A DNA stretch of 63,912 nt from an uncultured Chromatiaceae bacterium (lineage in GTDB: Bacteria > Pseudomonadota > Gammaproteobacteria > Tenderiales > Tenderiaceae): the NCBI GenBank assembly GCA_947259785.1, contig CAMYNQ010000002.1:1-63912 (forward strand), written 5' to 3'. Made by a program: the position numbers and the translations under genes. Shown piece after piece: positions 31,301 through 59,620 of this stretch. How positions within the stretch are numbered: the first letter of the stretch is position 1; the number at the start of each line of letters is the position of its first letter. A model generated the notes under the pieces. It searched no databases and was not told the origin of the DNA. It was given only the letters and a program-made list of their open reading frames with translations.

Positions 31301-34300
31301 CACCAATGGTGACCTCTTCATCATTAACCTTCGGGACATCCACGCCATAAGTAGAAACCAAGCTCTCGGCCGCACCACCATCAGGACGATTAATCAATGT
31401 CACGGTCAACGACTTAAAGCTACCATCATCACTAATGGTGCTATCGCTGTCTGCTGCCGCAACAGCGCCACCATCTTCAGAAAAACTGCCGTGGTAACTG
31501 CCGTTGGTTGCACCACTGCTGTCATCGCCATCGAGATCGATGATTGGAGCACGTAGCAAGGTCACGAAGACATTTTGATCGGCTGAAGTGGCACTTCCGC
31601 CATCGCCATCATTAACAGTGATGCGTACTGTTCTGGTATTGGTATTCAAGGTTCCCGCGTCGATATCGCGATATTGCAGCGCGGAGAGCAGATCTCGCAC
31701 GCGGGTAAGGGTGGCATTGGCATTGAGCGCAACCCCCAGAACGTTGCCTCCTGCACCGCCGGCAAAAGTACCTATAGATACGCTATTAGATACGTCATCA
31801 GTGTGGATCACGTTACTACCCGAGGTGGATATATTGCCCACAGAGCCGATTTGCAGCAGGTCTTCACTATTTTCGGCGTTGATAGTGATGCTTGCAGTTA
31901 CATTGCCACCGCTGAAATTGGCAGAGTCGATATCACTCAAGGCGGCATTACCATTGGCATCCAGCACGACAGCATTGCCACCTATACTGAAGCTCACACT
32001 ATCACCATTAAGATGGGTGATCGTAGGCGCATCATTCACCGGCGTAATGGCAATGGTTGCGCTTGCACTGCCGACAGACAAGCCGCCGCCAGAACTATTT
32101 GTAGCCGCCTGTACAGAGAAGACACCATCGGCAGTTCTATTGATGGCCGGGGTAAACTTCAGTCCGGCATTGCCTTCCGCGATGGTGATGAGTCTATTGT
32201 TGCTGATGGGCGTAATGCCGTTATTTTTATACAGCGTCCCGCCAGTGACACCCGTGATCTTGAAGTGGGTCACCTCATCACCGTCATTGATATTACGACT
32301 GATTACCAAGCCAGCGCTGCTTTGAGTATCTTCATTCGTGCTGGCATTGGTCACGCTAGGCACATCACCGATGGCTGTAATGGTAATCGTCGCCGTTGCG
32401 CTGCCTGCAGACAAACCACCGCCAGAACCATCAGTGCCTGCTTGTACATTAAAACTGCCTGAGCCAAAACTGTTGGCTGTCGGGGTAAACTTCAGCCCGG
32501 CATTACCTTCGGCAACGGTGATGAAGCTGTTGTTGCTGATAGACGTTGTGCCGTTATTTTTATACAGCGTCCCACCAGTGATATTGGTGATTTTGAAATG
32601 GGTCACCTCATTGGTGTCATTAATGTTGCGACTGATCACCAGACCACTTGTGCTTTGTGTATCCTCATTGGTCGACGTATTCGTCACTCTAGGTGTGTCG
32701 CCTACCGGTGAAATGGTAATAGTCGCCATTGCACTGCCCACAGACAAACCAACGTCAGATTCATTTGTAGCAGACTGAACATTAAACGAACCGTTGCTAC
32801 TGCTGTTCGCTGTTGGAGTAAACTTCAGCCCGGCATCGCCTTCAGCAAAGGTGATGAAGCTATCATCGTCAATAGCAGTGGTGCCATCATTTTTGTACAG
32901 CGTCCCACCAGTGATATTGGTGATCTTGAAATGGGTCACCTCTGTACCGTCATTCACGTTGCGACTAATCACCAGACCAGTTGTGCTTTGCGTATCCTCA
33001 TTGGTCGACGTATTCGTCACTCTAGGTGTGTCGCCTATCGGTGTAATGGTAATGGTCGCCGTTGCACTGCCCGCAGACAAACCGCCGCCAGACCCATCTG
33101 TGCCGGCCTGCACATCAAAACTGCCTGAGCTAAGACTGTTGACTGTCGGCGTAAACTTCAGTCCGGCATTGCCTTCGACGAAGGTAATAAAACTATTATT
33201 AGCAATGGCAGTGGTGCCATCATTTTTATACAGCGTACCGCCGCTGATACTGCTGATCTTGAAGTGGGTCACCTCATTGCCGTCATTAATGTTACGGCTG
33301 ATCACCAGACCAGTTGTGCTTTGCGTATCCTCATTGGTCGACGTATTCGTCACACTGGGTGTGTCGCCTATCGGTGTAATAGTAATGGTCGCCGTTGCAC
33401 TGCCGACAGACAACCCACTGCCAACAACATCCGTAGCGGCCTGAACATTAAACGAACCGTTGCTACTGCTGTTTGCTGTTGGGGTAAACTTTAGTCCGGC
33501 ATTGCCTTCAGCGACAGTAATAAAGCTATTATTGGCAATGGCAGTGGTGCCATCATTTTTATACAGCGTTCCACCAGTGATACTGTTGATCTTGAAATGG
33601 GTCACCTCATTGCCGTCATTAATGTTACGACTAATCACGAGGCCACCTGTGCTTTGCGTATCCTCACTGGTCGACGTATTCGTCACTCTAGGTGTGTCGC
33701 CTACCGGTGAAATGGTAATGGTCGCCGTTGCACTGACTGCAGACAACCCACTGCCAACATCATCCGTAGCGGCCTGAACATTAAACGAACCGTTGCTACT
33801 GCTGTTCGCTGTTGGGGTAAACTTCAGTCCGGCATTGCCTTCGACGAAGGTAATAAAACTATTATTGGCAATGGCAGTGGTGCCATCATTTTTGTACAGC
33901 GTCCCACCAGTGATATTGGTGATCTTGAAATGGGTCACCTCTGTACCGTCATTCACGTTGCGACTGATCACCAGACCAGTTGTGCTTTGCGTATCTTCAA
34001 TCGTGCTGGCATTGGTCACGCTAGGACCATCACCAATAACCGTAATGGTAATGGTCGCCGTTGCACTGCCCGCAGACAAACCACTGCCAACACCATCCAT
34101 AGCGGCCTGAACATCAAATGAACCGTTGCTACTGCTGTTTTCTGTTGGAGTAAACTTCAGCCCGGCATTGCCTTCGGCGACGGTGATGAAGCTATCATCG
34201 TCAATAGCAGTGGTGCCATCATTTTTGTACAGCGTCCCACCAGTGATATTGGTGATCTTGAAATGGGTCACCTCTGTACCGTCATTCACGTTGCGACTAA

Positions 34301-37300
34301 TCACCAGACCAGTTGTGCTTTGCGTATCCTCATTGGTCGACGTATTCGTCACTCTAGGTGTGTCGCCTATCGGTGTAATGGTAATGGTCGCCGTTGCACT
34401 GCCCGCAGACAAACCGCCGCCAGACCCATCTGTGCCGGCCTGCACATCAAAACTGCCTGAGCTAAGACTGTTGACTGTCGGCGTAAACTTCAGTCCGGCA
34501 TTGCCTTCGACGAAGGTAATAAAACTATTATTAGCAATGGCAGTGGTGCCATCATTTTTATACAGCGTACCGCCGCTGATACTGCTGATCTTGAAGTGAG
34601 TCACCTCTGTACCGTCATTCACGTTGCGACTAATCACCAGACCAGTTGTGCTTTGCGTATCTTCATCCGTGCTGGTATTGGTCACGCTAGGCGCATCACC
34701 AATGACTGTAATGGTAATGGTCGCTGTTGCACTGCCGACAGACAACCCACTGCCAACATCATCCGTAGCGGCCTGAACATTAAACGAACCGTTGTTGTTG
34801 CTGTTCGCTGTTGGAGTAAACTTCAGTCCGGCATTGCCCTCGGGGAAGGTAATAAAACTATTATTGGCAATGGCAGTGGTTCCATCATTTTTATACAGCG
34901 TCCCGCCAGTGATACCCGTGATCTTGAAGTGGGTAACCTCGTTACCGTCATTGGCATTTCGACTGATTACCAAGCCAGCGCTGCTTTGCGTATCTTCATT
35001 CGTGTTGGCATTGGTCACGCTAGGCACATCAGCAATGGCTGCAATGCTTATCGTCGCCGTTACGCTGCCTGCAGACAAACCACCGCCAGAACCATCTGTG
35101 CTTGCCTGTACATTAAAACTGCCTGAGCTAATGCTGTTTGCAGTCGGAGTAAACTTCAATCCGGCATTGCCTTCGGCGAAGGTGATGAAGCTATTGTTGC
35201 TGATGGGCGTTGTGCCGTTGTTTTGATACAGCGCCCCGCCAGTGATATCGGTGATCTTGAAGTGGGTCACCTCGGTGCTGTCATTGGTATTACGACTAAT
35301 CACCAGGCCAGCGCTGCTTTGCTGATCTTCATCCGTGCTGGCATTGGTCACGCTAGGTACATCACCAATGGCTGTAATAGTAATCGTCGCCGTTGTACTG
35401 CCTGCAGATAAACCACCGCCAGAATCATCTGTGCCTGCCTGCACCTCAAAACTGCCTGAGCTAATGCTGTTTGCAGTCGGAGTAAACTTCAATCCGGCAT
35501 TACCTTCAGCGAAGGTGATGAAGCTATTATTGCTGATAGGCGTTGTGCCATCATTCTTATACAGCGTACCGCCGCTGATATTGGTGATCTTGAAGTGGGT
35601 CACCTCGGTGCCATCATTGGTATTTCGACTGATTACCAAGCCACTTGTGCTTTGCGTATCTTCATTCGTGCTGGCATTGGTCACACTTGGCGTATCCGCA
35701 GTTGCTGACACCGTAATCGTTGCCGTGGCAGTGCCTGTAGAGAGGCCACCACCAATAGCATCCGTTGCCGCTTGAATATCAAACGAACCATTGATATTGC
35801 TGTTGGCTGTTGGGGTAAACTTCAGCCCGGCATTGCCTTCGGCAACGGTGATGAAGCTGTTGTTGCTGATGGGCGTTGTGCCGTTATTTTTAAACAGCGT
35901 CCCGCCAGTGATATCGGTGACCTTAAAATGGGTCACCTCATTGCCATCATTTACATTACGACTGATCACCAGCCCCGATGTGGTTTGGGTATCTTCATTG
36001 GTTGAAGCCCCTGTTACACTGGGTGTATCGCCTATAGGTGTAATGATAATCGTCGCCGTTGTACTGCCTGCAGATAAACCACCGCCAGAACCATCTGTGC
36101 CTGCCTGCACCTCAAAACTGCCTGAGCTAATGCTGTTTGCAGTCGGAGTAAACTTCAATCCGGCATTACCTTCAGCGAAGGTGATGAAGCTATTATTGCT
36201 GATAGGCGTTGTGCCATCATTCTTATACAGCGTACCGCCGCTGATATTGGTGGTCTTGAAATGGGTCACCTCGGTGCCATCATTGGTATTTCGACTGATT
36301 ACCAAGCCACTTGTGCTTTGCGTATCTTCATTCGTGCTGGCATTGGTCACACTTGGCGTATCCGCAGCTGCTGACACCGTAATCGTTGCCGTGGCAGTGC
36401 CTGTAGAGAGGCCACCACCAATAGCATCCGTTGCCGCTTGAATATCAAACGAACCATTGATATTGCTGTTGGCTGTTGGGGTAAACTTCAGCCCGGCATT
36501 GCCTTCGGCAACAGTGATGAAGCTATTGTTGCTTATGGGCGTTGTGCCGTTGTTTTGATACAGCGTACCGCCGCTGATACCGGTGATCTTGAAGTGGGTC
36601 ACCTCGGTGCCATCATTGGTATTTCGACTGATTACCAAGCCACTTGTGCTTTGCGTATCTTCATTCGTGCTGGCATTGGTCACACTTGGCGTATCCGCAG
36701 TTGCTGACACCGTAATCGTTGCCGTGGCAGTGCCTGTAGAGAGGCCACCACCAATAGCATCCGTTGCCGCTTGAATATCAAACGAACCATTGATATTGCT
36801 GTTGGCTGTTGGGGTAAACTTCAGCCCGGCATTGCCTTCGGCAACGGTGATGAAGCTGTTGTTGCTGATGGGCGTTGTGCCGTTATTTTTAAACAGCGTC
36901 CCGCCAGTGATATCGGTGACCTTAAAATGGGTCACCTCATTGCCATCATTTACATTACGACTGATCACCAGCCCCGATGTGGTTTGGGTATCTTCATTGG
37001 TTGAAGCCCCTGTTACACTGGGTGTATCGCCTATAGGTGTAATGATAATCGTCGCCGTTGTACTGCCTGCAGATAAACCACCGCCAGAACCATCTGTGCC
37101 TGCCTGCACCTCAAAACTGCCTGAGCTAATGCTGTTTGCAGTCGGAGTAAACTTCAATCCGGCATTACCTTCAGCGAAGGTGATGAAGCTATTATTGCTG
37201 ATAGGCGTTGTGCCATCATTCTTATACAGCGTACCGCCGCTGATATTGGTGGTCTTGAAATGGGTCACCTCGGCATCGTCATTTACATTACGACTGATCA

Positions 37301-49314: not shown

Positions 49315-49330
49315 TGGCACAGCTGTTGCA
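49315..49330 (+). promoter_or_regulatory. Sigma54 promoter of the flavoprotein/cytochrome operon
   Basis: TGGCACAGCTGTTGCA matches the -24/-12 consensus TGGYRYRNNNNTTGCW at every position, with GG-N10-GC spacing. The expected start is about 49341, leaving a 31-base leader before the ATG at 49372 and thus no room for an ANTAR leader. Confidence 0.88.
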
Positions 49331-49371: not shown

Positions 49372-51360
49372 ATGCCAATTACGAAACAACAATATCAGTA
49401 CCCGGCTTCTGAGTTGAATAATGTCTGTGTAGTGGTTGTTGGCACTGGGCCGGTTGGTATGCGCACCGTACAGGAGTTGTTTCGACTAAAACCAGATCAA
49501 AAAATTGTGATTTACGGAGATGAACCATGGGAGCCCTATAACCGCGTTCGTTTGACGCAGATGCTGGCAGGTCATTCTACCTGGGCTGATATCTTTCAAT
49601 CCTTAAAACTGCCTGAGCAGGCCAGCATAGAAAAGCGTTACAACTGTTCCGTGGTTGGCATTGATCCTGAGGCTAAAAAGGTGACTGATGCCGCAGGTGG
49701 CTCGCAAAATTATTCAAAATTAGTACTGGCTTTAGGTTCCAGGCCTCACATACCAAATATAACCGGTGTTGGTCTCGATGGTGTTTTTACGCTCCGTAAT
49801 ATGTCTGATGTTCAGGGGCTGTTGGCGCGGCGCGTCCGCAGCCGGAAGACGTTGGTCATTGGTGGTGGTCTGTTGGGCATAGAAGCCGCCAAGGCTTTGC
49901 AGCGCAGTCATGTTGAGGTCTCGATTATTGAGCACGGCAGTCGTTTAATGGAGCGGCAGCTAGATGATGCTGCCTCCGAATTCATTCGCGAATATGTACT
50001 GGAATTGGGTATTAAGGTCTATCTAGCTGATGGCGTACAACAGATATTGGGTGAGCGTCTGGTTCAGGGGGTGCGTTTGCGCAGTGGCCGTGAACTCGAT
50101 TTCGATACAATAGTCATTGCCAGCGGCATTATTCCCAACACCAAACTGGCACGTGAGTCTGGTATTGCCGTTGGCCGGGGCATTCGTGTTGATGACACAC
50201 TGCAAACCTCGGTACCTGATATCTATGCTGTTGGTGAGTGCACGGAACATCGAGGTCAAATATATGGACTGGTGGCCCCAGGACTTGAACAGGCCTCTGT
50301 TGCCGCCCACCACATTTTGGCTAAAAAGGCTGTTTACAAAGGCAGCATTGCGGCAGCCCACCTTAAAGTCGTTGGCAAAAGTGTGTTCAGCATTGGTTGT
50401 GTCAGTGATGTAGATATTGGCAATCTTGATGAGCAGATTTCATATCGTTCCACAGCGAATGATAGCTATAGAAAATTAGTCATTCGCCATAACAAGCTCG
50501 TGGGAGCTGTCGCGATTGGTGAATGGAATGAAGTTGGTCGTATTCAGGAGGCTGTTGTTTCAAACCGCCATGTTTGGCCTTGGCACAAATTACGCTTTAA
50601 ACGAACTGGGGAACTATGGCCAGCACAGGTCAGTGATGATATTCGTCGGTGGCCGGTTTCTGCCGCCGTTTGCAACTGCACTGGCGTGACTCGTGGTGCG
50701 TTGAGTGCGGCAGTGGCTGGTGGTTGTCAAACAGTGGCACAACTGGCTGAGTGTACGGGGGCTTCGACAGTGTGTGGCACATGTAAGCCTAAGTTGGCAC
50801 AACTGCTTGGCCAGCAGGTAGAGCCAGTTGAGCAGAAGGCTATGAGGCCACTAATGATCATGTCAATTGCGGCACTGCTTGTGGCTGGTTTGACTGCGCT
50901 AGTTGAGCCAATAACAAATGCAAAAACAGTGCAGGGTGGCTGGCATGTGAGTCAATTGTGGCATGACAGCTGGGCCAAGCAGGTAACCGGTTTTGGTCTG
51001 TTGGGTGTTACGGCTATTGCCTTGCTGATCTCGTTGAGAAAACGGTTATCTAAATTTGCGCTATTTGATTTTTCATATTGGCGTGTCCTGCACGCAGGGC
51101 TGGGGCTGGTTACGCTGTTGCTGTTATTGCTGCACACAGGCTTGCGTTTTGGTGACAACCTCAATTTTTATCTGATGTTCTGTTTTGTCGGTATTGTAAT
51201 TGTCGGGACGGTCGCTGGGGTTGTTACTGCGTATGAGGGGGGCAAGACCAGTCTGGTGATTGGCCGCTGGCGTCGTTGCTCTACTTGGGCACATATTTTT
51301 CTATTTTGGCCTTTGCCGGTGTTGCTTGGCTTTCACATTCTTAAGTCGTATTACTACTAG
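49372..51360 (+). CDS. NirB-like FAD/BFD oxidoreductase fused to a membrane cytochrome-b-like domain
   Basis: 662 residues. The N-terminal pyridine-nucleotide-disulfide oxidoreductase part has FAD motif VVGTGPVG (23-30), YNRVRLTQML, LVLALGSRPHIPNI, a second nucleotide motif VIGGGLLGIEAAK and DIYAVGECTEH. It resembles the first half of the nitrite reductase large subunit NirB. A BFD-like [2Fe-2S] domain follows with Cys434, Cys436, Cys468 and Cys471 (CNC...CGTC). The siroheme/4Fe4S reductase half of NirB is absent. Instead residues about 490-662 form roughly five transmembrane helices with histidines (LHAGLG, LLHTGLRF, WAHIFLFW, FHILK) that could ligate heme b. It probably moves electrons between NAD(P)H or a quinone and the adjacent multiheme cytochrome. 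Driven by a sigma54 promoter; the cytochrome gene follows after 8 bases. Confidence 0.8.
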   Translation: MPITKQQYQYPASELNNVCVVVVGTGPVGMRTVQELFRLKPDQKIVIYGDEPWEPYNRVRLTQMLAGHSTWADIFQSLKLPEQASIEKRYNCSVVGIDPEAKKVTDAAGGSQNYSKLVLALGSRPHIPNITGVGLDGVFTLRNMSDVQGLLARRVRSRKTLVIGGGLLGIEAAKALQRSHVEVSIIEHGSRLMERQLDDAASEFIREYVLELGIKVYLADGVQQILGERLVQGVRLRSGRELDFDTIVIASGIIPNTKLARESGIAVGRGIRVDDTLQTSVPDIYAVGECTEHRGQIYGLVAPGLEQASVAAHHILAKKAVYKGSIAAAHLKVVGKSVFSIGCVSDVDIGNLDEQISYRSTANDSYRKLVIRHNKLVGAVAIGEWNEVGRIQEAVVSNRHVWPWHKLRFKRTGELWPAQVSDDIRRWPVSAAVCNCTGVTRGALSAAVAGGCQTVAQLAECTGASTVCGTCKPKLAQLLGQQVEPVEQKAMRPLMIMSIAALLVAGLTALVEPITNAKTVQGGWHVSQLWHDSWAKQVTGFGLLGVTAIALLISLRKRLSKFALFDFSYWRVLHAGLGLVTLLLLLLHTGLRFGDNLNFYLMFCFVGIVIVGTVAGVVTAYEGGKTSLVIGRWRRCSTWAHIFLFWPLPVLLGFHILKSYYY

Positions 51361-51368
51361 GTTGCACC

Positions 51369-52715
51369 ATGAAGCATGCAAATATGAAATGGTGGATCTT
51401 GTGGTTGTTCAGTAGTCTTAGCTTGGCTGGTTATTTTGCTTATGCACTGGTTATGGGCGAAGACAAAACGGTTTACCTACCCGGTGATAGTAGTCATGGG
51501 CATTATCAAATCGAAATGGCATGTAATAGTTGCCACGGCGAAGCCTTTGATGACCAGGAGGTCATGCAAACGGCCTGTGTCAATTGTCATGCTGATGAAC
51601 TTAAGAGGGTGGATGACTCACACCCAAAACGTAAATTTACCGACCCGCGCAACGCAGATCGCGTTGCTATTTTGGATGCACGCTATTGCATCACTTGTCA
51701 CAGTGAGCATGACCAGGAAATCACTGCTGACATGGGCGTGACCCTGGCAAGTGATTTCTGTGCTTTATGCCACGAAAATATTGCTACTGATCGTGTTAGC
51801 CATAAGCTTTTACCATTTGATGGTTGTGCTAGTGCCGGCTGCCACAATTATCACGATAACAAAGCGCTTTACGAAGACTTCCTTGTTAAACATGCCAACG
51901 AACCAGTTGTCATGGCTGAGCCAAAAGTCGCTGAACGTAATTATTCTGACTGGGTGGTAAAGGTAGAGGGCAGGAAACCAACATCGCTGACACGGAGTGA
52001 TGTCGATGCCCCTTCAGAGATAGAGCTTGATCCGTTGGAAATGAGTCGTTGGCAGGGATCTGCTCATGCTCGCGGCGGTATTAACTGTTCAGGTTGTCAT
52101 GTTGATGACAATAAGTGGCTAAGAAAACCTGGATTAGCCATTTGCCAAACCTGTCATAACTCGGAAACAGAGGGTTTTAAACAGGGAAAACATGGCATGC
52201 GCATTGCCGTTGGTCTCGATCCGCTGAGGCCAAAAGATGCGCGTCTGGCCATGAATAAAGATGTCCACAACAGTCAGTTAGCTTGTAATAGCTGTCATGA
52301 GGGCCATGCCTATTATATTAAAAAAGCCGCAGCTGAAGCTTGTCTTGCTTGTCATGATGATGGGCATAGCAAGGCATATCTAAGATCTAAACACAATATT
52401 CTTTGGCAGCAGGAGATCGAGGGTTTAATTGATCCAGGTCAGGGTGTCTCCTGTGCTACCTGCCACATGCCTCGCCAACGGGTCCGTAGTCAAGGTCATG
52501 AGCGGGTAATGGTTAGTCATAATCAAAACCTCAATCTGCGTCCCAATGAAAAGATGCTGCGTGGTGTTTGTATGAATTGTCATGGCTATGAATTTTCGGT
52601 CAATGCATTGGCCGATGTTGAATTAGTAAAAACAAATTTCAATGGTAAACCGAAAGTGATGATTGAAAGCGTCAAGATGGCGCTGAAACGCGAACGGACT
52701 GAGAAATCTGAGTAG
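51369..52715 (+). CDS. Membrane-anchored undecaheme cytochrome c
   Basis: 448 residues. An N-terminal anchor (about 8-29) precedes ten CxxCH heme sites (Cys52, 70, 107, 131, 240, 259, 306, 325, 362 and 401) and one CX4CH site (Cys153-Cys158-His159), eleven in all. The C-terminal half, with DVHNSQLACNSCH, SKAYLRSKHNILWQQE and GVSCATCHMPR, resembles periplasmic multiheme reductases of the NrfA/HAO superfamily, but no CxxCK site is present. It could be a nitrogen-oxide reductase or an electron carrier. Its operon partner is the membrane flavoprotein upstream; the substrate is inferred only from context. Confidence 0.85.
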   Translation: MKHANMKWWILWLFSSLSLAGYFAYALVMGEDKTVYLPGDSSHGHYQIEMACNSCHGEAFDDQEVMQTACVNCHADELKRVDDSHPKRKFTDPRNADRVAILDARYCITCHSEHDQEITADMGVTLASDFCALCHENIATDRVSHKLLPFDGCASAGCHNYHDNKALYEDFLVKHANEPVVMAEPKVAERNYSDWVVKVEGRKPTSLTRSDVDAPSEIELDPLEMSRWQGSAHARGGINCSGCHVDDNKWLRKPGLAICQTCHNSETEGFKQGKHGMRIAVGLDPLRPKDARLAMNKDVHNSQLACNSCHEGHAYYIKKAAAEACLACHDDGHSKAYLRSKHNILWQQEIEGLIDPGQGVSCATCHMPRQRVRSQGHERVMVSHNQNLNLRPNEKMLRGVCMNCHGYEFSVNALADVELVKTNFNGKPKVMIESVKMALKRERTEKSE

Positions 52716-52758
52716 TAAATCCAAATCGACGTTTAATTTAATCCACCATAGGAGAAGT

Positions 52759-53346
52759 ATGATGAAATATGTAAATAAGGCGATAGCCGTCGTGACTCTG
52801 GCAAGTTCAACGCTTTTACTGAGCGCTTGTGGTGACGAGCCGTCAACCGCAGCGCCTGTTGGTGTGTCGCCGCAAAAGATGTCTGATGCGCTGCATGCGG
52901 TAATGGAAGCCGATCGCGCCATCTATACCAAAAAGGTCATTGCCAGATTAGTGAAGCAAGAAAAACTGATTAAGGCCAGCGAACACTGGGAAGATGAAAA
53001 GGCTTTGCCACTGCCGGCGCAAATGTTCCGCATGGGCTCTGAACGTGTGGCTGAAAATACTTCTGACTTCAGTTACTCGTTGATATCAGCCTGGCCAATC
53101 AATAAGCAGAATGAACCCAAGACCGACGCTGAGAAAGAGGGCTTGAAGTATATCGAGGATAATCCGGGTAAAAATTTTTATAAGACTGAAAGTTTAGGTG
53201 GGCAGGCCTATTTCACTGCGATTTACCCTGATGTGGCGGTCGCTGCGCCCTGTGCCGATTGCCATAACGATCACAAAGATTCACCTAAGACTGATTTCAA
53301 AATTGGTGACACCATGGGCGGTGTAGTGATTCGCATACCTTTATAA
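52759..53346 (+). CDS. DUF3365 (Tll0287-like) heme lipoprotein
   Basis: 195 residues with a lipoprotein signal (LLLSAC, lipid Cys near 25) and a DUF3365 domain: ADRAIYTKKVIARL, LPLPAQMFRMGSE, SLISAWPINKQNEPKTDAEKEGL and a c-type heme site CADCHN near the end. Such domains are PAS-like heme sensors or small electron carriers. SD GGAGAAG precedes the start. It follows the undecaheme gene by 43 bases and ends at an intrinsic terminator, so it completes a three-gene redox operon. Confidence 0.85.
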   Translation: MMKYVNKAIAVVTLASSTLLLSACGDEPSTAAPVGVSPQKMSDALHAVMEADRAIYTKKVIARLVKQEKLIKASEHWEDEKALPLPAQMFRMGSERVAENTSDFSYSLISAWPINKQNEPKTDAEKEGLKYIEDNPGKNFYKTESLGGQAYFTAIYPDVAVAAPCADCHNDHKDSPKTDFKIGDTMGGVVIRIPL

Positions 53347-53525: not shown

Positions 53526-53541
53526 TGGAATGGTTTTTGCG
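53526..53541 (+). promoter_or_regulatory. Candidate sigma54 promoter of the ANTAR regulator
   Basis: TGGAATGGTTTTTGCG keeps GG-N10-GC and TTGC but differs from TGGYRYRNNNNTTGCW at two positions (A for Y, G for W). The expected start is about 53552, upstream of the ATG at 53594. It is weaker than the other three sites; a partial NtrC-like half-site lies near 53407. Confidence 0.5.
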
Positions 53542-53593: not shown

Positions 53594-54172
53594 ATGAATA
53601 TAAGACTGATGCTGGTCTATCAATCCAGACAACGACAGCAGCTTTTGCAACAGGCTGCAGACGAAAGTGGCTATCAGGTGGCAGTATGTGTTGCGCTGGA
53701 TGCTGATCTTCAACAAACGCTGCAGGCAGCTCAGGCAGATGTCATCATCTTTGATATTGATCAACCTGATCAACAATTGTTGGCCCGCACGCATAACCTG
53801 AATCAGCTGCATGCCATACCGATTATCATGTTTGCTGAACGGGGCGACCAAAAAACAATCATAGAGGCGGTTAATGCCGGGGTCACTTCTTATGTGGTTG
53901 ATGGCCTGCAGCCTAAGCGTCTGCGGCCGATTGTAGAAGCAGCCATGGCCCGTTTTAAGGCCTTTCAATCGTTACGCCAAGAGTTGCAGGAGACCAAGAG
54001 CAAACTGGAAGACCGTAAACATATCGACAAGGCCAAGGGCATCCTGATCCAGCAAAAAAACATCAGTGAGGATCAGGCTTATCAGGCGCTACGTAAACTG
54101 GCCATGGATAGGAACATCAAGCTTGGTGACGCGGCCTGTAATGTCATTGCCATGGCTGATATTTTTAAATGA
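53594..54172 (+). CDS. ANTAR-domain response regulator (NasT-like antiterminator)
   Basis: 192 residues. The N-terminal receiver-like domain (1-120) lacks the paired acidic residues of true receivers (LVYQSRQRQQ in their place) but has FDIDQPD at the phospho-site position. A coiled linker (125-140) leads to a C-terminal ANTAR domain: LEDRKHIDKAKGILIQQKNISEDQAYQALRKLAMDRN. ANTAR proteins bind tandem hexaloop hairpins and prevent terminator formation. NasT is held by the nitrate sensor NasS until nitrate is present. No nasS is adjacent, so the partner is elsewhere or different. Its targets are the leaders at 54364 and 55966. Confidence 0.92.
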   Translation: MNIRLMLVYQSRQRQQLLQQAADESGYQVAVCVALDADLQQTLQAAQADVIIFDIDQPDQQLLARTHNLNQLHAIPIIMFAERGDQKTIIEAVNAGVTSYVVDGLQPKRLRPIVEAAMARFKAFQSLRQELQETKSKLEDRKHIDKAKGILIQQKNISEDQAYQALRKLAMDRNIKLGDAACNVIAMADIFK

Positions 54173-54327: not shown

Positions 54328-54343
54328 TGGTACGGGCTTTGCT
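54328..54343 (+). promoter_or_regulatory. Sigma54 promoter of the porin gene
   Basis: TGGTACGGGCTTTGCT fits TGGYRYRNNNNTTGCW fully, with GG-N10-GC. The predicted start at about 54354 lies 10 bases before the first ANTAR hairpin, so the leader RNA begins right at the regulatory structure. Confidence 0.88.
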
Positions 54344-54363
54344 ATCTAACTGATTATGAACTT

Positions 54364-54463
54364 GCTGGCTAATGGTGGCTAGCGGGGAATTAAAAAATAC
54401 TTTGGACAACGACGTCCACTCGTTTGGCAGCTCCCTAACTGCCAGCGTGTGGGCGTTTTTTTT
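54364..54463 (+). promoter_or_regulatory. ANTAR antitermination leader of the porin gene
   Basis: Hairpin P1 is GCTGGCT-[AATGGT]-GGCTAGC (54364-54383) and P2 is GGAC-[AACGAC]-GTCC (54404-54417). Both loops are six bases with A at position 1 and G at position 4, the ANTAR-binding signature. The P2 right arm is shared with the 5' arm of the terminator (CGTCCACTCG, 54413-54422, pairing with CGTGTGGGCG, 54446-54455), followed by eight T. Protein-stabilised P2 therefore excludes the terminator. Confidence 0.9.
54413..54463 (+). terminator. Regulated intrinsic terminator before the porin gene
   Basis: The outer stem CGTCCACTCG / CGTGTGGGCG (one mismatch, one G-T) carries an inner GGCAG / CTGCC stem and is followed by T8 (54456-54463). 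It is mutually exclusive with ANTAR hairpin P2. It would stop the transcript 25 bases before the porin ATG in the absence of the antiterminator. Confidence 0.9.
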
Positions 54464-54488: not shown

Positions 54489-55718
54489 ATGAAAACAGTA
54501 ATGGGCTTTAAGAAAAAAATCACTCCTGCACTATTAGTGGCATCAGCTTTGGCGGGCAGCAATGTTTCGACAGCAAGTGCCGCAACACTGGCTGAAGCCA
54601 TATCGGACGGTAAGGCAGGGCTGGATTTGCGCTACCGTTTTGAAACGGTTGATCAAGACGGTGCTAGCAATGATGCAACAGCTTCAACGCTGAAAACTCG
54701 TCTTAACTATGCCACTGGTGATTACAACGATTTCAGTGCCTTTATCGAATTTGATGACGTCATGGCCCTGGGTGATGTTGAATATAATGATGCAACCGGG
54801 TCTGCGACGGCCCAAACCAGCTATCCAGTAGTGGCTGACCCAGAAGGTACCGAAGTAAATCAGGCCAAAATCAGTTACAAGGGCGTTGATGACACAACCA
54901 TGACCTTGGGACGTCAGCGGGTAATTTTTGATAATGCCCGTTTTATTGGCAACGTTGGCTGGCGTCAAAATGAGCAGACCTATGATGCCTTCACGATAGC
55001 CAATACTTCACTGGCAGATACCAGCATCGTTTATGGTTATGTCACTAACGTCAATCGCATCTTTGGTGAAGCCTCGACAAAGGGTGATATTGATACAGAA
55101 ACTCACCTTGTGAATATCGCCTACAGCGGTCTTGAAGCCGGCAAGCTGACTGGTTATGGTTATTTTTTAGATCTACTTGATTCACCCGCGGCATCGAATT
55201 CAACGCTTGGCCTTCGTTTTGCCGGTGGTACAAAAGTAAGCGAGGCCGCTAAGGTGCTCTACACCCTAGAGTTCGCTAACCAGTCTGATTACTCGGATGG
55301 TGCCTCAACGATTGATGCCGATTACAGTTTGATCGAGGTAGGTGGAAAGGCCGGTGGTGTAACCGCCAAGCTGGGTGTTGAAACTCTGAGTGGCGACGGA
55401 ACCTATGCTTTTAGTACACCACTGGCCACGGCGCATGCCTTTAATGGCTGGGCTGATAAATTTTTAGGCACACCGGCCAATGGTCTGGTTGATGCCTATG
55501 TCAGTGTTGGCGGCAAGGTTTCGGGTGTGAAGCTGGTGGCTGTGTATCATGATTTTACTTCCGATACTGGCAGCACCGACTACGGCACAGAGTTTGATTT
55601 GTTGGCGGCCAAGAAGATTGGCAACTATACCGTGTTAGCTAAATACGCCAGTTACTCAGCTGATAGCTTTGCCACTGACACAGACAAGCTATGGTTGATG
55701 GGTCAGGCTAAATTCTAA
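54489..55718 (+). CDS. Outer-membrane porin (alginate-export/OprD-like barrel)
   Basis: 409 residues. A signal peptide (cleavage near TASA-A, about 32) is followed by a barrel with LRYRFETVDQDGA, LKTRLNYATGDYNDFSAFIEFDDV, VNQAKISYKG and TLGRQRVIFDNARFIGNVGWRQNEQTYDA, a pattern of the alginate_exp-type porin family. It ends in a terminal aromatic (LMGQAKF). It is preceded by the NtrC-sigma54 promoter and ANTAR leader, so its likely role is uptake of nitrate or another N source across the outer membrane. That substrate is inferred from regulation, not sequence. Confidence 0.85.
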   Translation: MKTVMGFKKKITPALLVASALAGSNVSTASAATLAEAISDGKAGLDLRYRFETVDQDGASNDATASTLKTRLNYATGDYNDFSAFIEFDDVMALGDVEYNDATGSATAQTSYPVVADPEGTEVNQAKISYKGVDDTTMTLGRQRVIFDNARFIGNVGWRQNEQTYDAFTIANTSLADTSIVYGYVTNVNRIFGEASTKGDIDTETHLVNIAYSGLEAGKLTGYGYFLDLLDSPAASNSTLGLRFAGGTKVSEAAKVLYTLEFANQSDYSDGASTIDADYSLIEVGGKAGGVTAKLGVETLSGDGTYAFSTPLATAHAFNGWADKFLGTPANGLVDAYVSVGGKVSGVKLVAVYHDFTSDTGSTDYGTEFDLLAAKKIGNYTVLAKYASYSADSFATDTDKLWLMGQAKF

Positions 55719-55931: not shown

Positions 55932-55947
55932 TGGCATAGTGGTTGCA
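55932..55947 (+). promoter_or_regulatory. Sigma54 promoter of the nitrate transport operon
   Basis: TGGCATAGTGGTTGCA matches TGGYRYRNNNNTTGCW at every position with GG-N10-GC spacing. The predicted start is about 55958. I did not find a clean NtrC dyad in the 100 bases upstream, which is occupied by the porin terminator. Confidence 0.88.
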
Positions 55948-55965: not shown

Positions 55966-56127
55966 GGCCCAACGTAGGGTTAGCTAAACAAAACAACGGT
56001 TAGGCTCCAACGGCGGACACTAAACCGGAAAATAAAAAACAGTCGCGGCCAGAGTAGGGCCTGAACAGGACAACGACGTCCATCGGCAACACGCTATCAG
56101 TGTGTCTGCGGGTGGGCGTTTTTTTTT
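55966..56127 (+). promoter_or_regulatory. Extended ANTAR leader of the nitrate transport operon
   Basis: Four hairpins with A1/G4 loops. H1 is GGCCC-[AACGTA]-GGGTT (55966-55981). H2 is a longer stem closed by CGGTT/AACCG and ending TCC-[AACGGC]-GGA (55997-56027). H3 is GGCC-[AGAGTAG]-GGCC (56047-56061, a seven-base loop). H4 is GGAC-[AACGAC]-GTCC (56068-56081), identical in stem and loop to P2 of the porin leader. The H4 right arm overlaps the terminator 5' arm. H3+H4 is the likely antiterminator pair; H1+H2 look like a second ANTAR pair. Confidence 0.85.
56077..56127 (+). terminator. Regulated intrinsic terminator before the nitrate-binding protein gene
   Basis: CGTCCATC (56077-56084) pairs with GGGTGGGCG (56110-56118) including G-T pairs. 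An inner GCA..ACAC / GTGT..TGC stem is present, followed by nine T (56119-56127). It excludes H4 of the ANTAR leader. Confidence 0.88.
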
Positions 56128-56155
56128 GATTTGTAAACGTAAACGGAGTGGAACA

Positions 56156-57574
56156 ATGAAGTTGGAAACACAAACACAGATGAACCTGACTTGCCGGGGT
56201 TTTATGAAAAAGGCATCGGCTGCCGTGCTGTCAGCAATGATGGTGATGGGCGGTTCTGTTATTTTGCCAGGCAGTGCAGCCTATGCGATTGATGATCTGG
56301 AAAAGGAGGATCTGAAAATTGGTTTTATCAAACTGACAGACATGGCGCCCTTGGCGATTGCCTATGAAAAGGGTTTCTTCGAAGATGAAGGTCTGTACGT
56401 CACTCTGGAAGCGCAGGCCAACTGGAAGGTGTTGCTTGACCGTGTTATCGATGGCGAGCTTGACGGTGCCCACATGCTGGCCGGTCAACCGTTGGGTGCA
56501 ACCATTGGTTTTGGTACCCAGGATCACATCATCACTGCCTTCTCCATGGACCTGAATGGTAATGCCATCACTGTTTCCAACAAGGTCTGGGGCGAGATGA
56601 AAAAACACATTCCGCATGAAGGCGGCAAACCCGTTCACCCCATCAAGGCTGATGCACTGAAACCTGTGATTGAGCAATACAAAGACGCAGGCAAGCCTTT
56701 CAAGATGGGCATGGTGTTCCCAGTCTCTACCCATAACTATGAGCTTCGTTACTGGTTGGCTGCGGGTGGTATCCACCCAGGTTATTACGCACCACACAAG
56801 GGCGATACCTCAGGCACCATCGATGCAGAAGCGTTGTTGTCTGTAACGCCACCACCACAAATGCCATCGACTATGGAGGCCGGCACGATTGATGGATACT
56901 GCGTCGGTGAACCCTGGAACCAGCAGGCTGTATTTAAGGGCATAGGTGTGCCGGTGGTGACCGATTATGAGATCTGGAAAGACAACCCTGAAAAAGTATT
57001 TGGTGTCAGCAAGAAGTGGGCAGATAAAAACCCCAACACGCATATTGCTGTCGTCAAGGCCATGATCCGTGCTGCCAAATGGTTGGATGACAATAACAAC
57101 GCCAATCGTCCTGAGGCGGTTAAAATTCTGTCACAGCCAAACTATGTGGGTGCTGACTACGACGTAATCGCCAACTCCATGACCGGTACTTTTGAGTATG
57201 AGAAGGGTGACAAGCGTGCGGTGCCAGACTTCAATGTCTTCTTTCGTTATAACGCCACCTATCCCTATTACTCAGATGCAATCTGGTACCTGACGCAGAT
57301 GCGTCGTTGGGGTCAGGTGGCGGATGAGAAGCCGGATAGCTGGTTCATGGATATCGCCAAGAAAGTTTATCGTCCAGACATTTATACAATCGCTGCGAAA
57401 GAACTGATTGCCGAAGGCAAGATTGCTGCAAGCGAGTTTCCGGACTTTGCCAAGGAAGATGGTTTTCGTGCGCCACAAACGCACTTCATCGATGGCATTA
57501 CCTATGACGGTAAAAAACCGAATGACTATCTGAAGAAATTCAATATTGGCCTGAAGGGTAGTGAAAAGATCTAA
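56156..57574 (+). CDS. nrtA: Nitrate ABC transporter substrate-binding protein (NrtA-like)
   Basis: 472 residues from the ATG at 56156. A GTG at 56102 would start inside the leader terminator and is rejected. The signal-type N-terminus (about residues 20-45, ending AYA) is followed by the NrtA/CmpA/NasF fold: [100 protein letters not shown]. The family binds nitrate (or bicarbonate in CmpA) in the periplasm. The ANTAR and sigma54 control supports nitrate. Confidence 0.93.
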
Positions 57575-57645
57575 AGCAAGTTCTCCCCCTCCCGTTAGGA
57601 GGGGGAATTAAAGCCTAACCCCAACACTTGAAGCAGGGTGAAGTA

Positions 57646-58665
57646 ATGAAAACCAAAATTATCAACACGCTCGAAATGACTGGTCTCTCATGGCTGGTGC
57701 CCGTGGTGCGTTTGAGCAGCGGAGAAAATCCACGTGACCAACTCAACGAAATGATGACAGTGATTGGTCTGCCGCTGATCGCCATCGCCGCCTTTTTGTT
57801 TATCTGGGCCGGTGCCGCTGCCCAGGTTAAAACCAGCCTGGGTGAACTGCCGGGTCCGAGTCAGGTATGGCAACAGGCCCAAGGCTTGTATGAAGAACAC
57901 CTGGCCGAGCGTGAAAAAGAGGCGGCCTTTTATGAACGCCAGGAACAACGCAATGCCAAGAAACTGGCCAAGAACCCTGATGCTGAAATCAAGGTGCGTG
58001 ATTATACCGGTCGCGACACGTTTATCGACCAAATATGGACCAGCTTGGGCACTGTCTTTACAGGATTCTTTTTTGGCGCACTGATTGCCATTCCCATCGG
58101 TGTCGCCTGTGGTCTGAGCCAAAAACTCTATGGCGCCATCAGTCCACTGGTGCAGATATTCAAACCCGTATCACCACTGGCCTGGCTCCCCATCGTGACC
58201 ATGATTGTTAGTGCTGTTTACATCACTGACGATCCTATGTTCGAAAAGGCCTTTATTACCTCGGCCATCACGGTGACGCTGTGTTCGCTGTGGCCAACGC
58301 TGATTAACACGGCTGTCGCTGTCGCCTCAATCGACAAAGACTTGATCAATGTTGGCCGTGTGATTCGTCTGCATTGGTTAACTCAGGTATTCAAAATTGC
58401 CATCCCCGCTGCACTGCCAATGATCTTTACTGGCCTGCGTATCTCACTGGGTATCGGCTGGATGGTATTGATTGCCGCTGAGATGCTGGCGCAAAACCCA
58501 GGCCTGGGCAAGTTCGTCTGGGATGAATTCCAGAATGGCAGTTCCAATTCCCTGGGCCGCATCATGGTCGCGGTGATTAGCATAGGCCTGATTGGTTTCT
58601 TGTTGGACTGGATGATGATGACACTGCAAAAAGTGTTGTCACATGACAAGACTGCAGGTGCTTAA
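57646..58665 (+). CDS. nrtB: Nitrate ABC transporter permease (NrtB-like)
   Basis: 339 residues from the ATG at 57646; a TTG at 57628 is less likely. A first TM (about 32-50) is followed by a charged segment of about 60 residues (EEHLAEREKEAAFYERQEQRNAKKLAKNPDAEIK), then the BPD_transp_1 core: SLGTVFTGFFFGALIAIPIGVACGL, KPVSPLAWLPIVTM, and GLRISLGIGWMVLIAAEMLAQNPGLGKFVWDEFQNG with the EAA-loop-like signature. It pairs with NrtA and the ATPase downstream. The gap after nrtA is 71 bases. Confidence 0.93.
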   Translation: MKTKIINTLEMTGLSWLVPVVRLSSGENPRDQLNEMMTVIGLPLIAIAAFLFIWAGAAAQVKTSLGELPGPSQVWQQAQGLYEEHLAEREKEAAFYERQEQRNAKKLAKNPDAEIKVRDYTGRDTFIDQIWTSLGTVFTGFFFGALIAIPIGVACGLSQKLYGAISPLVQIFKPVSPLAWLPIVTMIVSAVYITDDPMFEKAFITSAITVTLCSLWPTLINTAVAVASIDKDLINVGRVIRLHWLTQVFKIAIPAALPMIFTGLRISLGIGWMVLIAAEMLAQNPGLGKFVWDEFQNGSSNSLGRIMVAVISIGLIGFLLDWMMMTLQKVLSHDKTAGA

Positions 58666-58700
58666 TTGCCTAAGGGTAAAAGTGTCAATTAAAAAAATAT

Positions 58701-58725
58701 GTAGTGCGGATTTCAGCCGCCCTAC
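58701..58725. repeat. REP-like palindrome between nrtB and the ATPase gene
   Basis: Arms GTAGTGCGG / CCGCCCTAC with TTTCAG between them, one mismatch. The GTAG-GCGG...CCGC-CTAC layout is common in proteobacterial intergenic repeats. It may adjust the relative amounts of permease and ATPase mRNA. Confidence 0.55.
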
Positions 58726-58756
58726 AAGATGATCAAAGAGATTAGAGGGCAACACA

Positions 58757-59620
58757 ATGTCAGTAGTACAAATGTTGAAAACAGAAGCAATAGTTGATGA
58801 GGCTATGGACAAGCCAAGAGAACACTACCAGCGAGCGTTCCTTGATCTCAGCGGAATCTCAATTGAGTTCCCCACCAAAAAGGGGCCATTCAAAGCGCTG
58901 GACAACGTCAACCTGAAGATTGCCAAGGGTGAGTTTGTTTCCATTATTGGTCACTCCGGTTGCGGTAAATCAACGGTTTTGAACATCGTTGCCGGTCTTT
59001 ACAAGGCGACAACCGGTGGTGTGATTCTTAACGGTAAAGAGGTGGACGAACCCGGGCCTGATCGGGCAGTAGTGTTTCAGAATCATTCACTGTTGCCATG
59101 GCTGACCTGTTATCAGAATGTTGAGATTGCGGTGAAGGCCATCTTTAAGGGCAAAAAGAGCAAACTTGAGATGAAGCAGTGGATTGAACACAATCTGCAC
59201 CTTGTGCACATGGATCATGCCATGCACAAATATCCGGCTGAAATTTCTGGCGGCATGAAACAGCGTATCGGTATTGCCCGGGCATTGGCGATGGAGCCAA
59301 CGGTACTGCTGATGGATGAGCCTTTTGGTGCCCTGGACGCCCTGACCCGTGCCCATCTGCAAGATTCGGTGATGGAGATTCAGGCTGATCTTAATAGCAC
59401 CGTCATCATGATTACCCATGATGTCGATGAGTCTGTGTTGTTGTCAGACAAAATTGTGATGATGACAAATGGCCCGGCGGCAACGGTTGGCGAGGTATTG
59501 AACATCGAGTTGGAACGGCCGCGTAATCGGTTGGAACTGGCAGATGACCCGCAATACAACAAATATCGCGCCGAGGTGTTGAAGTTTCTTTATGAGCGTC
59601 AACGTCGACCACAGGAGTAG
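58757..59620 (+). CDS. nrtD: Nitrate ABC transporter ATP-binding protein (NrtD/NasD-like)
   Basis: 287 residues. Walker A GHSGCGKST, Q-loop FQNHSLLPWLT, signature SGGMKQRIGIARALAMEP, Walker B VLLMDEPFGALD and H-loop MITHDVDESVLLSDKI are all present. It lacks the NrtA-like C-terminal sensor domain found in cyanobacterial NrtC, so one ATPase gene probably serves as a homodimer. It powers nitrate import with NrtA and NrtB, and is the last gene of the operon. Confidence 0.93.
   Translation: MSVVQMLKTEAIVDEAMDKPREHYQRAFLDLSGISIEFPTKKGPFKALDNVNLKIAKGEFVSIIGHSGCGKSTVLNIVAGLYKATTGGVILNGKEVDEPGPDRAVVFQNHSLLPWLTCYQNVEIAVKAIFKGKKSKLEMKQWIEHNLHLVHMDHAMHKYPAEISGGMKQRIGIARALAMEPTVLLMDEPFGALDALTRAHLQDSVMEIQADLNSTVIMITHDVDESVLLSDKIVMMTNGPAATVGEVLNIELERPRNRLELADDPQYNKYRAEVLKFLYERQRRPQE

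Follow-up and report, generated by a model that had tools for sequence, protein, structure and literature searches.

A predicted ANTAR-responsive antitermination leader ahead of a porin gene in a putative nitrate-uptake cluster of an uncultured Chromatiaceae bacterium

Our analysis of a stretch of 63,912 nucleotides from an uncultured Chromatiaceae bacterium (the window) indicates that positions 54361-54463 very probably act as a transcription-antitermination leader for the gene of a nitrate-uptake porin, with the ANTAR protein encoded from position 53594 as its switch. The in silico basis consists of RNA structures, covariation, covariance-model matches, conserved RNA-contact residues in the protein, and loss of the leader together with its regulator in relatives.

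Structure of the porin leader

The two hairpins of the leader, P1 and P2 (Table 1), have six-base loops with A at position 1 and G at position 4, lie in the untranslated leader, and were found exactly where the original prediction had placed them. The 5' arm of the terminator that follows takes in the right arm and half of the loop of P2; this reuse of the second hairpin's right arm had also been proposed, and is borne out by the sequence, by folding of both states and by covariation of the shared arm (below). The fragment with P1 and P2 folds at -21.2 kcal/mol (z -4.7) and that from P2 to the U tract at -28.0 kcal/mol (z -3.8). The entire leader folds into P1 plus terminator (z -4.66; none of 200 shuffles was as good), so termination appears to be the default without protein; P2 is seen only in the fragment that lacks the 3' arm of the terminator, the two structures being mutually exclusive. 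In these folding models the arrangement fits an antiterminator that depends on a protein. A simple terminator scan misses the terminator; the interruption in its stem and a loop beyond the size limit of the scan are the probable reasons.

P1 and P2 are separated by 16 nt; in related leaders this linker ranges from 2 to 29 nt, and it is often long in related porin leaders too. Natural linkers of EutV targets measure 5-12 nt, and function suffered when the linker was 14 nt long or was extended by 20 nt (PMC3369931, PMC8934654). The linker here is outside that range, which weighs against the reading; the limit is known for EutV only, and the model built from related leaders accepts the site.

Table 1. 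Predicted features of the porin and nrtA region of the window
Feature	Position	Strand	Sequence or detail	Evidence
Sigma-54-type promoter-like site before ANTAR gene	53526-53541	+	TGGAATGGTTTTTGCG	weak, p 0.03 vs shuffles
ANTAR regulator, NasT-like	53594-54172	+	pseudo-receiver + ANTAR domain, 192 aa	Pfam ANTAR 70 bits, Response_reg 38 bits
Sigma-54-type promoter before porin	54328-54343	+	TGGTACGGGCTTTGCT	p 0.001; also in G001, G002, G005
P1 hairpin	54361-54386	+	CTTGCTGGCT-AATGGT-GGCTAGCGGG, loop 54371-54376	sequence, folding, covariance model
P2 (antiterminator) hairpin	54403-54418	+	TGGAC-AACGAC-GTCCA, loop 54408-54413	sequence, folding, covariance model, covariation
Intrinsic terminator	54411-54457, U tract to 54463	+	5' arm GACGTCCAC 54411-54419, 3' arm 54449-54457	folding, P2/terminator covariation
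Outer-membrane porin (Alginate_exp / Opr-type)	54489-55718	+	409 aa	Pfam PF13372 32 bits; NCBIfam opr_proin_2 below cut-off
Sigma-54-type promoter of nrtA	55932-55947	+	TGGCATAGTGGTTGCA	p about 0.01; also in G001, G002, G003, G005, G007, G009
Extra ANTAR-type hairpin, nrtA leader	55966-55981	+	ggccc-AACGTA-gggtt	weak model match 55964-56003
Extra ANTAR-type hairpin, nrtA leader	56006-56017	+	tcc-AACGGC-gga	covariance model, hairpin count
Second ANTAR leader, before nrtA	56045-56082	+	degenerate P1 ggcc-AGAGTAG-ggcc, P2 ggac-AACGAC-gtcc	model match 20.6 bits
nrtA-leader terminator with U tract	56075-56128	+	overlaps nrtA-leader P2	fold of 56066-56131, -30.5 kcal/mol, z -5.3
nrtA-like nitrate-binding protein	56156-57574	+		Pfam NMT1_2 340 bits
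nrtB-like permease + nrtC/D-like ATPase	57628-59620	+		NCBIfam ntrB 148 bits (below cut-off), ntrCD 345 bits (above)

Covariance model and covariation

Leaders were collected from the regions 5' of relatives of the porin, nrtA and nirB-like genes, in related genomes and 80 named contigs, by a hairpin scanner that picks pairs of hexaloop hairpins with a U tract behind them and does not require terminator complementarity; three picks were excluded as mis-assigned (L039 and L092 before nirB-like genes and L138 before nrtA). A covariance model trained on 19 of these leaders, all from outside the window's own family, has its best match in the window (32.0 bits, E 1.2e-6), and likewise in the whole genome (E 6.1e-5), at positions 54364-54418, as expected if an ANTAR antitermination leader stands before the porin gene, which was the core of the original prediction. 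The leader before nrtA is second in the window; these two are the top two of the whole genome, and the search detected no other leader there. In 90 loci (1.18 Mb) every one of the 27 matches at E <= 0.01 is immediately 5' of a porin, nrtA or nirB-like gene; the 27 include some training leaders, those of G001, G002, G003 and G009, for example, not being among the latter. Weak matches within coding regions of G005 and G003 were judged to be due to chance. Rfam 15, at gathering and E-value thresholds, gave no ANTAR family match at the site or in the loci of four relatives with the same leaders, so this check, which the original prediction had proposed, carries no information: Rfam lacks a model that recognises such leaders.

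The compensatory changes anticipated across homologues are present in both stems: among 29 leaders, 86.5% of cells are paired, against 24-49% when the arms are slid, with 76 double-sided changes (the scanner partly selects for inner stem pairs and A1/G4, and not for outer pairs or the terminator arm). The right arm of P2 pairs with the left arm of P2 in 96.6% of cells and with the 3' arm of the terminator in 94.3%, the latter being the best of about ten registers, and there are double-sided changes in each.

The nrtA leader and the nitrate-uptake genes

The second leader, which the original prediction did not mention, has the same P2 loop and the same terminator 3' arm sequence as the porin leader. 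In ten of 20 nrtA leaders the 110 bases 5' of P1 contain another AAnG hexaloop hairpin, where 0.64 is expected from shuffles (8 of 18 without L138, whose P1 is mis-assigned, and L029, whose distance was counted from P2). At least three ANTAR-type hexaloop hairpins, well above chance, are present in each of the nrtA leaders of L030, L032, L075, L086, L120, L182 and L183. From the structure of EutV it has been proposed that a single dimer moves from one loop to the next (PMC8934654), and by analogy we suggest that the extra loops may be extra landing sites for the ANTAR dimer.

Since the porin gene stands directly before nrtABC, which itself has an ANTAR leader, the porin is most simply the step at the outer membrane in a transport regulon that it shares with nrtABC: an outer-membrane porin and an ABC transporter that together look like a single unit of nitrate uptake. 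The substrate of the porin is not indicated by matches in Pfam, PDB or NCBIfam; nitrate as what passes it is suggested by the neighbouring genes only. It had been thought unusual that the target is a porin and not a reductase or transport gene. The porin target stands; the contrast was overstated, given its place directly before nrtABC and the recurrence of porin leaders elsewhere. As the porin belongs to the nitrate-transport cluster, its control by ANTAR would be an extension and not a surprise. Less expected are the regulator without a NasS partner, its degenerate receiver, and the extra hexaloop hairpins in about half of the nrtA leaders.

Distribution, and loss with the regulator

Porin leaders occur in at least eight other loci, belonging to congeners, Halopseudomonas, other Gammaproteobacteria, an alphaproteobacterial MAG and a MAG labelled Verrucomicrobiales (G001, G002, Halopseudomonas oceani, Halopseudomonas pachastrellae, L078, L086, L088 and L134, of which L078 is the MAG labelled Verrucomicrobiales and L134 a Rhodobiaceae MAG); L038 and L113 have them with a divergent P1. 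About 80 of the 90 loci have a porin of the same family without such a leader, which weighs against the reading. In L034 (13459-13550) two ANTAR hairpins lie directly ahead of the porin start codon with no terminator, and these might act on translation. In G007 and G009 the leader is before the nirB-like gene (the G007 cluster runs on to the porin), and in G002 another (L198, G002:C230:3663-3729) precedes a formate/nitrite transporter (FNT) gene. Since leaders also precede nirB-like and FNT genes, it appears that ANTAR proteins control several transport genes, the porin among them. A Guanidine-I riboswitch (Rfam RF00442; L066 7377-7477, - strand) lies beside the nitrate-uptake cluster of Halopseudomonas oceani.

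Within the window's family, leaders are present in all six genomes that carry a NasT-type ANTAR gene (G000-G003, G007 and G009); G005, G006 and G008 lack both gene and leader, absence being weaker evidence in draft genomes, and G006 and G008 keep the porin. The genome of G005, which is of the same genus, is complete and has no ANTAR gene; its porin and nrtA genes are side by side and their sigma-54 sites are kept, and P1 and P2 have been lost from both leaders (L179). The 3' ends of its terminators (GGGCG or GGACGC plus U tract) can still be aligned; the porin terminator has lost its 5' arm, and on our reading of the alignment that of nrtA may keep about six pairs. G005 is thus, to judge from its genome, a natural knock-out.

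Promoters

The sigma-54-type promoters of Table 1 predict transcript starts at about 54355 for the porin, some six bases ahead of P1, and at about 55959 for nrtA. Sites similar to the one before the ANTAR gene were found by eye in the congeners G001 and G002, and a sigma-54-type site at 49315 before the nirB-like gene recurs before the same gene in congeners. The nas operon of Klebsiella is under NtrC control. By analogy with that operon we infer a logic in which nitrogen limitation would act at the promoter and nitrate at the leader.

The regulator

The ANTAR regulator gene that had been predicted some 190 bases upstream is there, its stop codon 191 bases before 54364, and it is the sole ANTAR gene found in a search of the genome. 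The residues of EutV that contact RNA (R142, K143, K147, K149, E160, Y164, R168 and M172) correspond to R141, K142, K146, K148, E159, Y163, R167 and M171 here, in an alignment against 6wsh/6ww6, whose chain numbering is that of the paper plus 2. The receiver keeps D54 and has lost the acidic pair (YQ) and the conserved lysine (D), so phosphorylation is unlikely.

A search for NasS in this genome, a 95% complete draft, turned up NrtA and, apart from it, a single unrelated lipoprotein of the same family, and no candidate was found in G001, G003, G009, G012, G020, G032 or G055; as positive controls, the same search found NasS beside NasT in Halovibrio, Alcanivorax and Microbulbifer. We therefore call the regulator NasT-like and not NasT. 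The C135 NMT1-like protein of the same genome was rejected as NasS (it has a lipoprotein-like N-terminus and a score of 63 bits only), and another candidate for NasS, a substrate-binding protein on contig C217 of G002, adjoins a cyanase-like gene and looks like a component of a cyanate transporter. Pfam finds no NIT domain in the protein, so it is not NasR; a NIT-domain search of the genome gave no matches, which is weak evidence, since the control genomes gave none either. Halopseudomonas has a single ANTAR protein, a nitrate sensor of the NIT-ANTAR (NasR-type) kind, which supports nitrate as the signal for porin leaders.

Proposed mechanism and alternatives

Nitrogen limitation would cause the sigma-54 promoter to start transcription at about 54355. 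With no active ANTAR protein the terminator would form and RNA polymerase would stop ahead of the porin gene. When the protein is active, most likely with nitrate or nitrite present, its dimer would sit on the A1/G4 hexaloops of P1 and P2 and hold P2, leaving the terminator without its 5' arm, so that the porin is made. Protein binding, read-through and nitrate as the signal are what we infer here from the in silico evidence. The same protein would also control nrtABC through the leader at 56045-56127, and entry of nitrate through the outer and inner membranes would be switched together.

A terminator between two co-directional genes could be an ordinary intrinsic terminator of the ANTAR gene, accompanied by chance hairpins, with the porin transcribed from elsewhere. 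This is very improbable: a sigma-54-type promoter stands between the ANTAR gene and the leader, as it does in congeners, and the dual hairpin is matched by a model trained on other families, covaries, and is lost together with the regulator. A rather unlikely reading, though far better than the last, accepts the ANTAR leader and denies that nitrate is its signal; the ANTAR protein would be constitutive or answer another cue, its synthesis driven by sigma-54/NtrC in a feed-forward response to nitrogen limitation. Neither NasS nor a NIT sensor was found in the genome (the NIT search also giving nothing in control genomes), the receiver lacks the acidic pair and conserved lysine, a sigma-54-like site lies ahead of the ANTAR gene, and loss of NasS in a NasS-NasT system leaves expression unregulated (PMC3795266). 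On the other hand, the targets are nitrate-uptake genes, homologous porin leaders occur with NIT-ANTAR nitrate sensors, and a sensor could be missed in a 95% complete draft genome. The preferred reading, a nitrate-responsive leader, can be carried further to a two-membrane nitrate-uptake regulon whose ANTAR protein would need neither NasS nor a NIT domain nor phosphorylation and would sense nitrate by some other route, and in which the three or four hexaloops of nrtA leaders are successive loading sites; we regard this extension as possible, if on balance doubtful.

Comparison with known ANTAR systems

As in the NasR/nasF leader of Klebsiella oxytoca, there are two A1/G4 hexaloop hairpins, a competing terminator, an ANTAR protein and nitrate-assimilation genes (PMC7496416, PMC3369931). 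Unlike NasR (NIT-ANTAR), the regulator here is a pseudo-receiver-ANTAR protein, and there is a separate leader for an outer-membrane porin, of which we found no counterpart for NasR/nasF in the literature searched. The NasS-NasT/nasA leader of Paracoccus denitrificans (also Azotobacter and Pseudomonas) shares the receiver-ANTAR protein and nitrate genes (PMC3795266) and differs in that NasS was not found here or in most related genomes examined, and in that the targets here are uptake genes. The EutV/eutP leader of Enterococcus faecalis is similar in its dual hexaloop, terminator overlap and conserved RNA-contact residues (PMC8934654); EutV is activated by phosphorylation, whereas the receiver here is without the residues needed for it, and the linker here is longer. 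Our literature search, which covered mainly papers open to all readers and, of the 2012 survey (PMC3369931), the article apart from its supplementary hit tables, found no report of ANTAR control of a porin.

With the porin leader, ANTAR antitermination would reach the passage of nutrients through the outer membrane. The leader also makes the porins of this family candidates for nitrate pores, and suggests that these bacteria use a single regulator to open their two membranes to nitrate. The regulators without NasS are natural material on how pseudo-receiver ANTAR proteins switch, as are the leaders with at least three hexaloops on the loop-to-loop movement of the ANTAR dimer proposed from the EutV structure (PMC8934654).

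Other features of the window

A conserved cluster at 49372-53346 encodes a Tll0287-like protein, a multihaem cytochrome c in which about ten CxxCH-type sites were counted by eye, and a NirB-like FAD/BFD protein that lacks a siroheme domain and has a membrane part. It has a strong sigma-54-type site, is linked to porin/nrtABC in several genera and is behind an ANTAR leader in G007 and G009; it is possibly an electron-transfer system for nitrate or nitrite. At about 32000-36700 of the window the sigma-54 scan picked up recurring 16-base strings, which point to a gene with long internal repeats.
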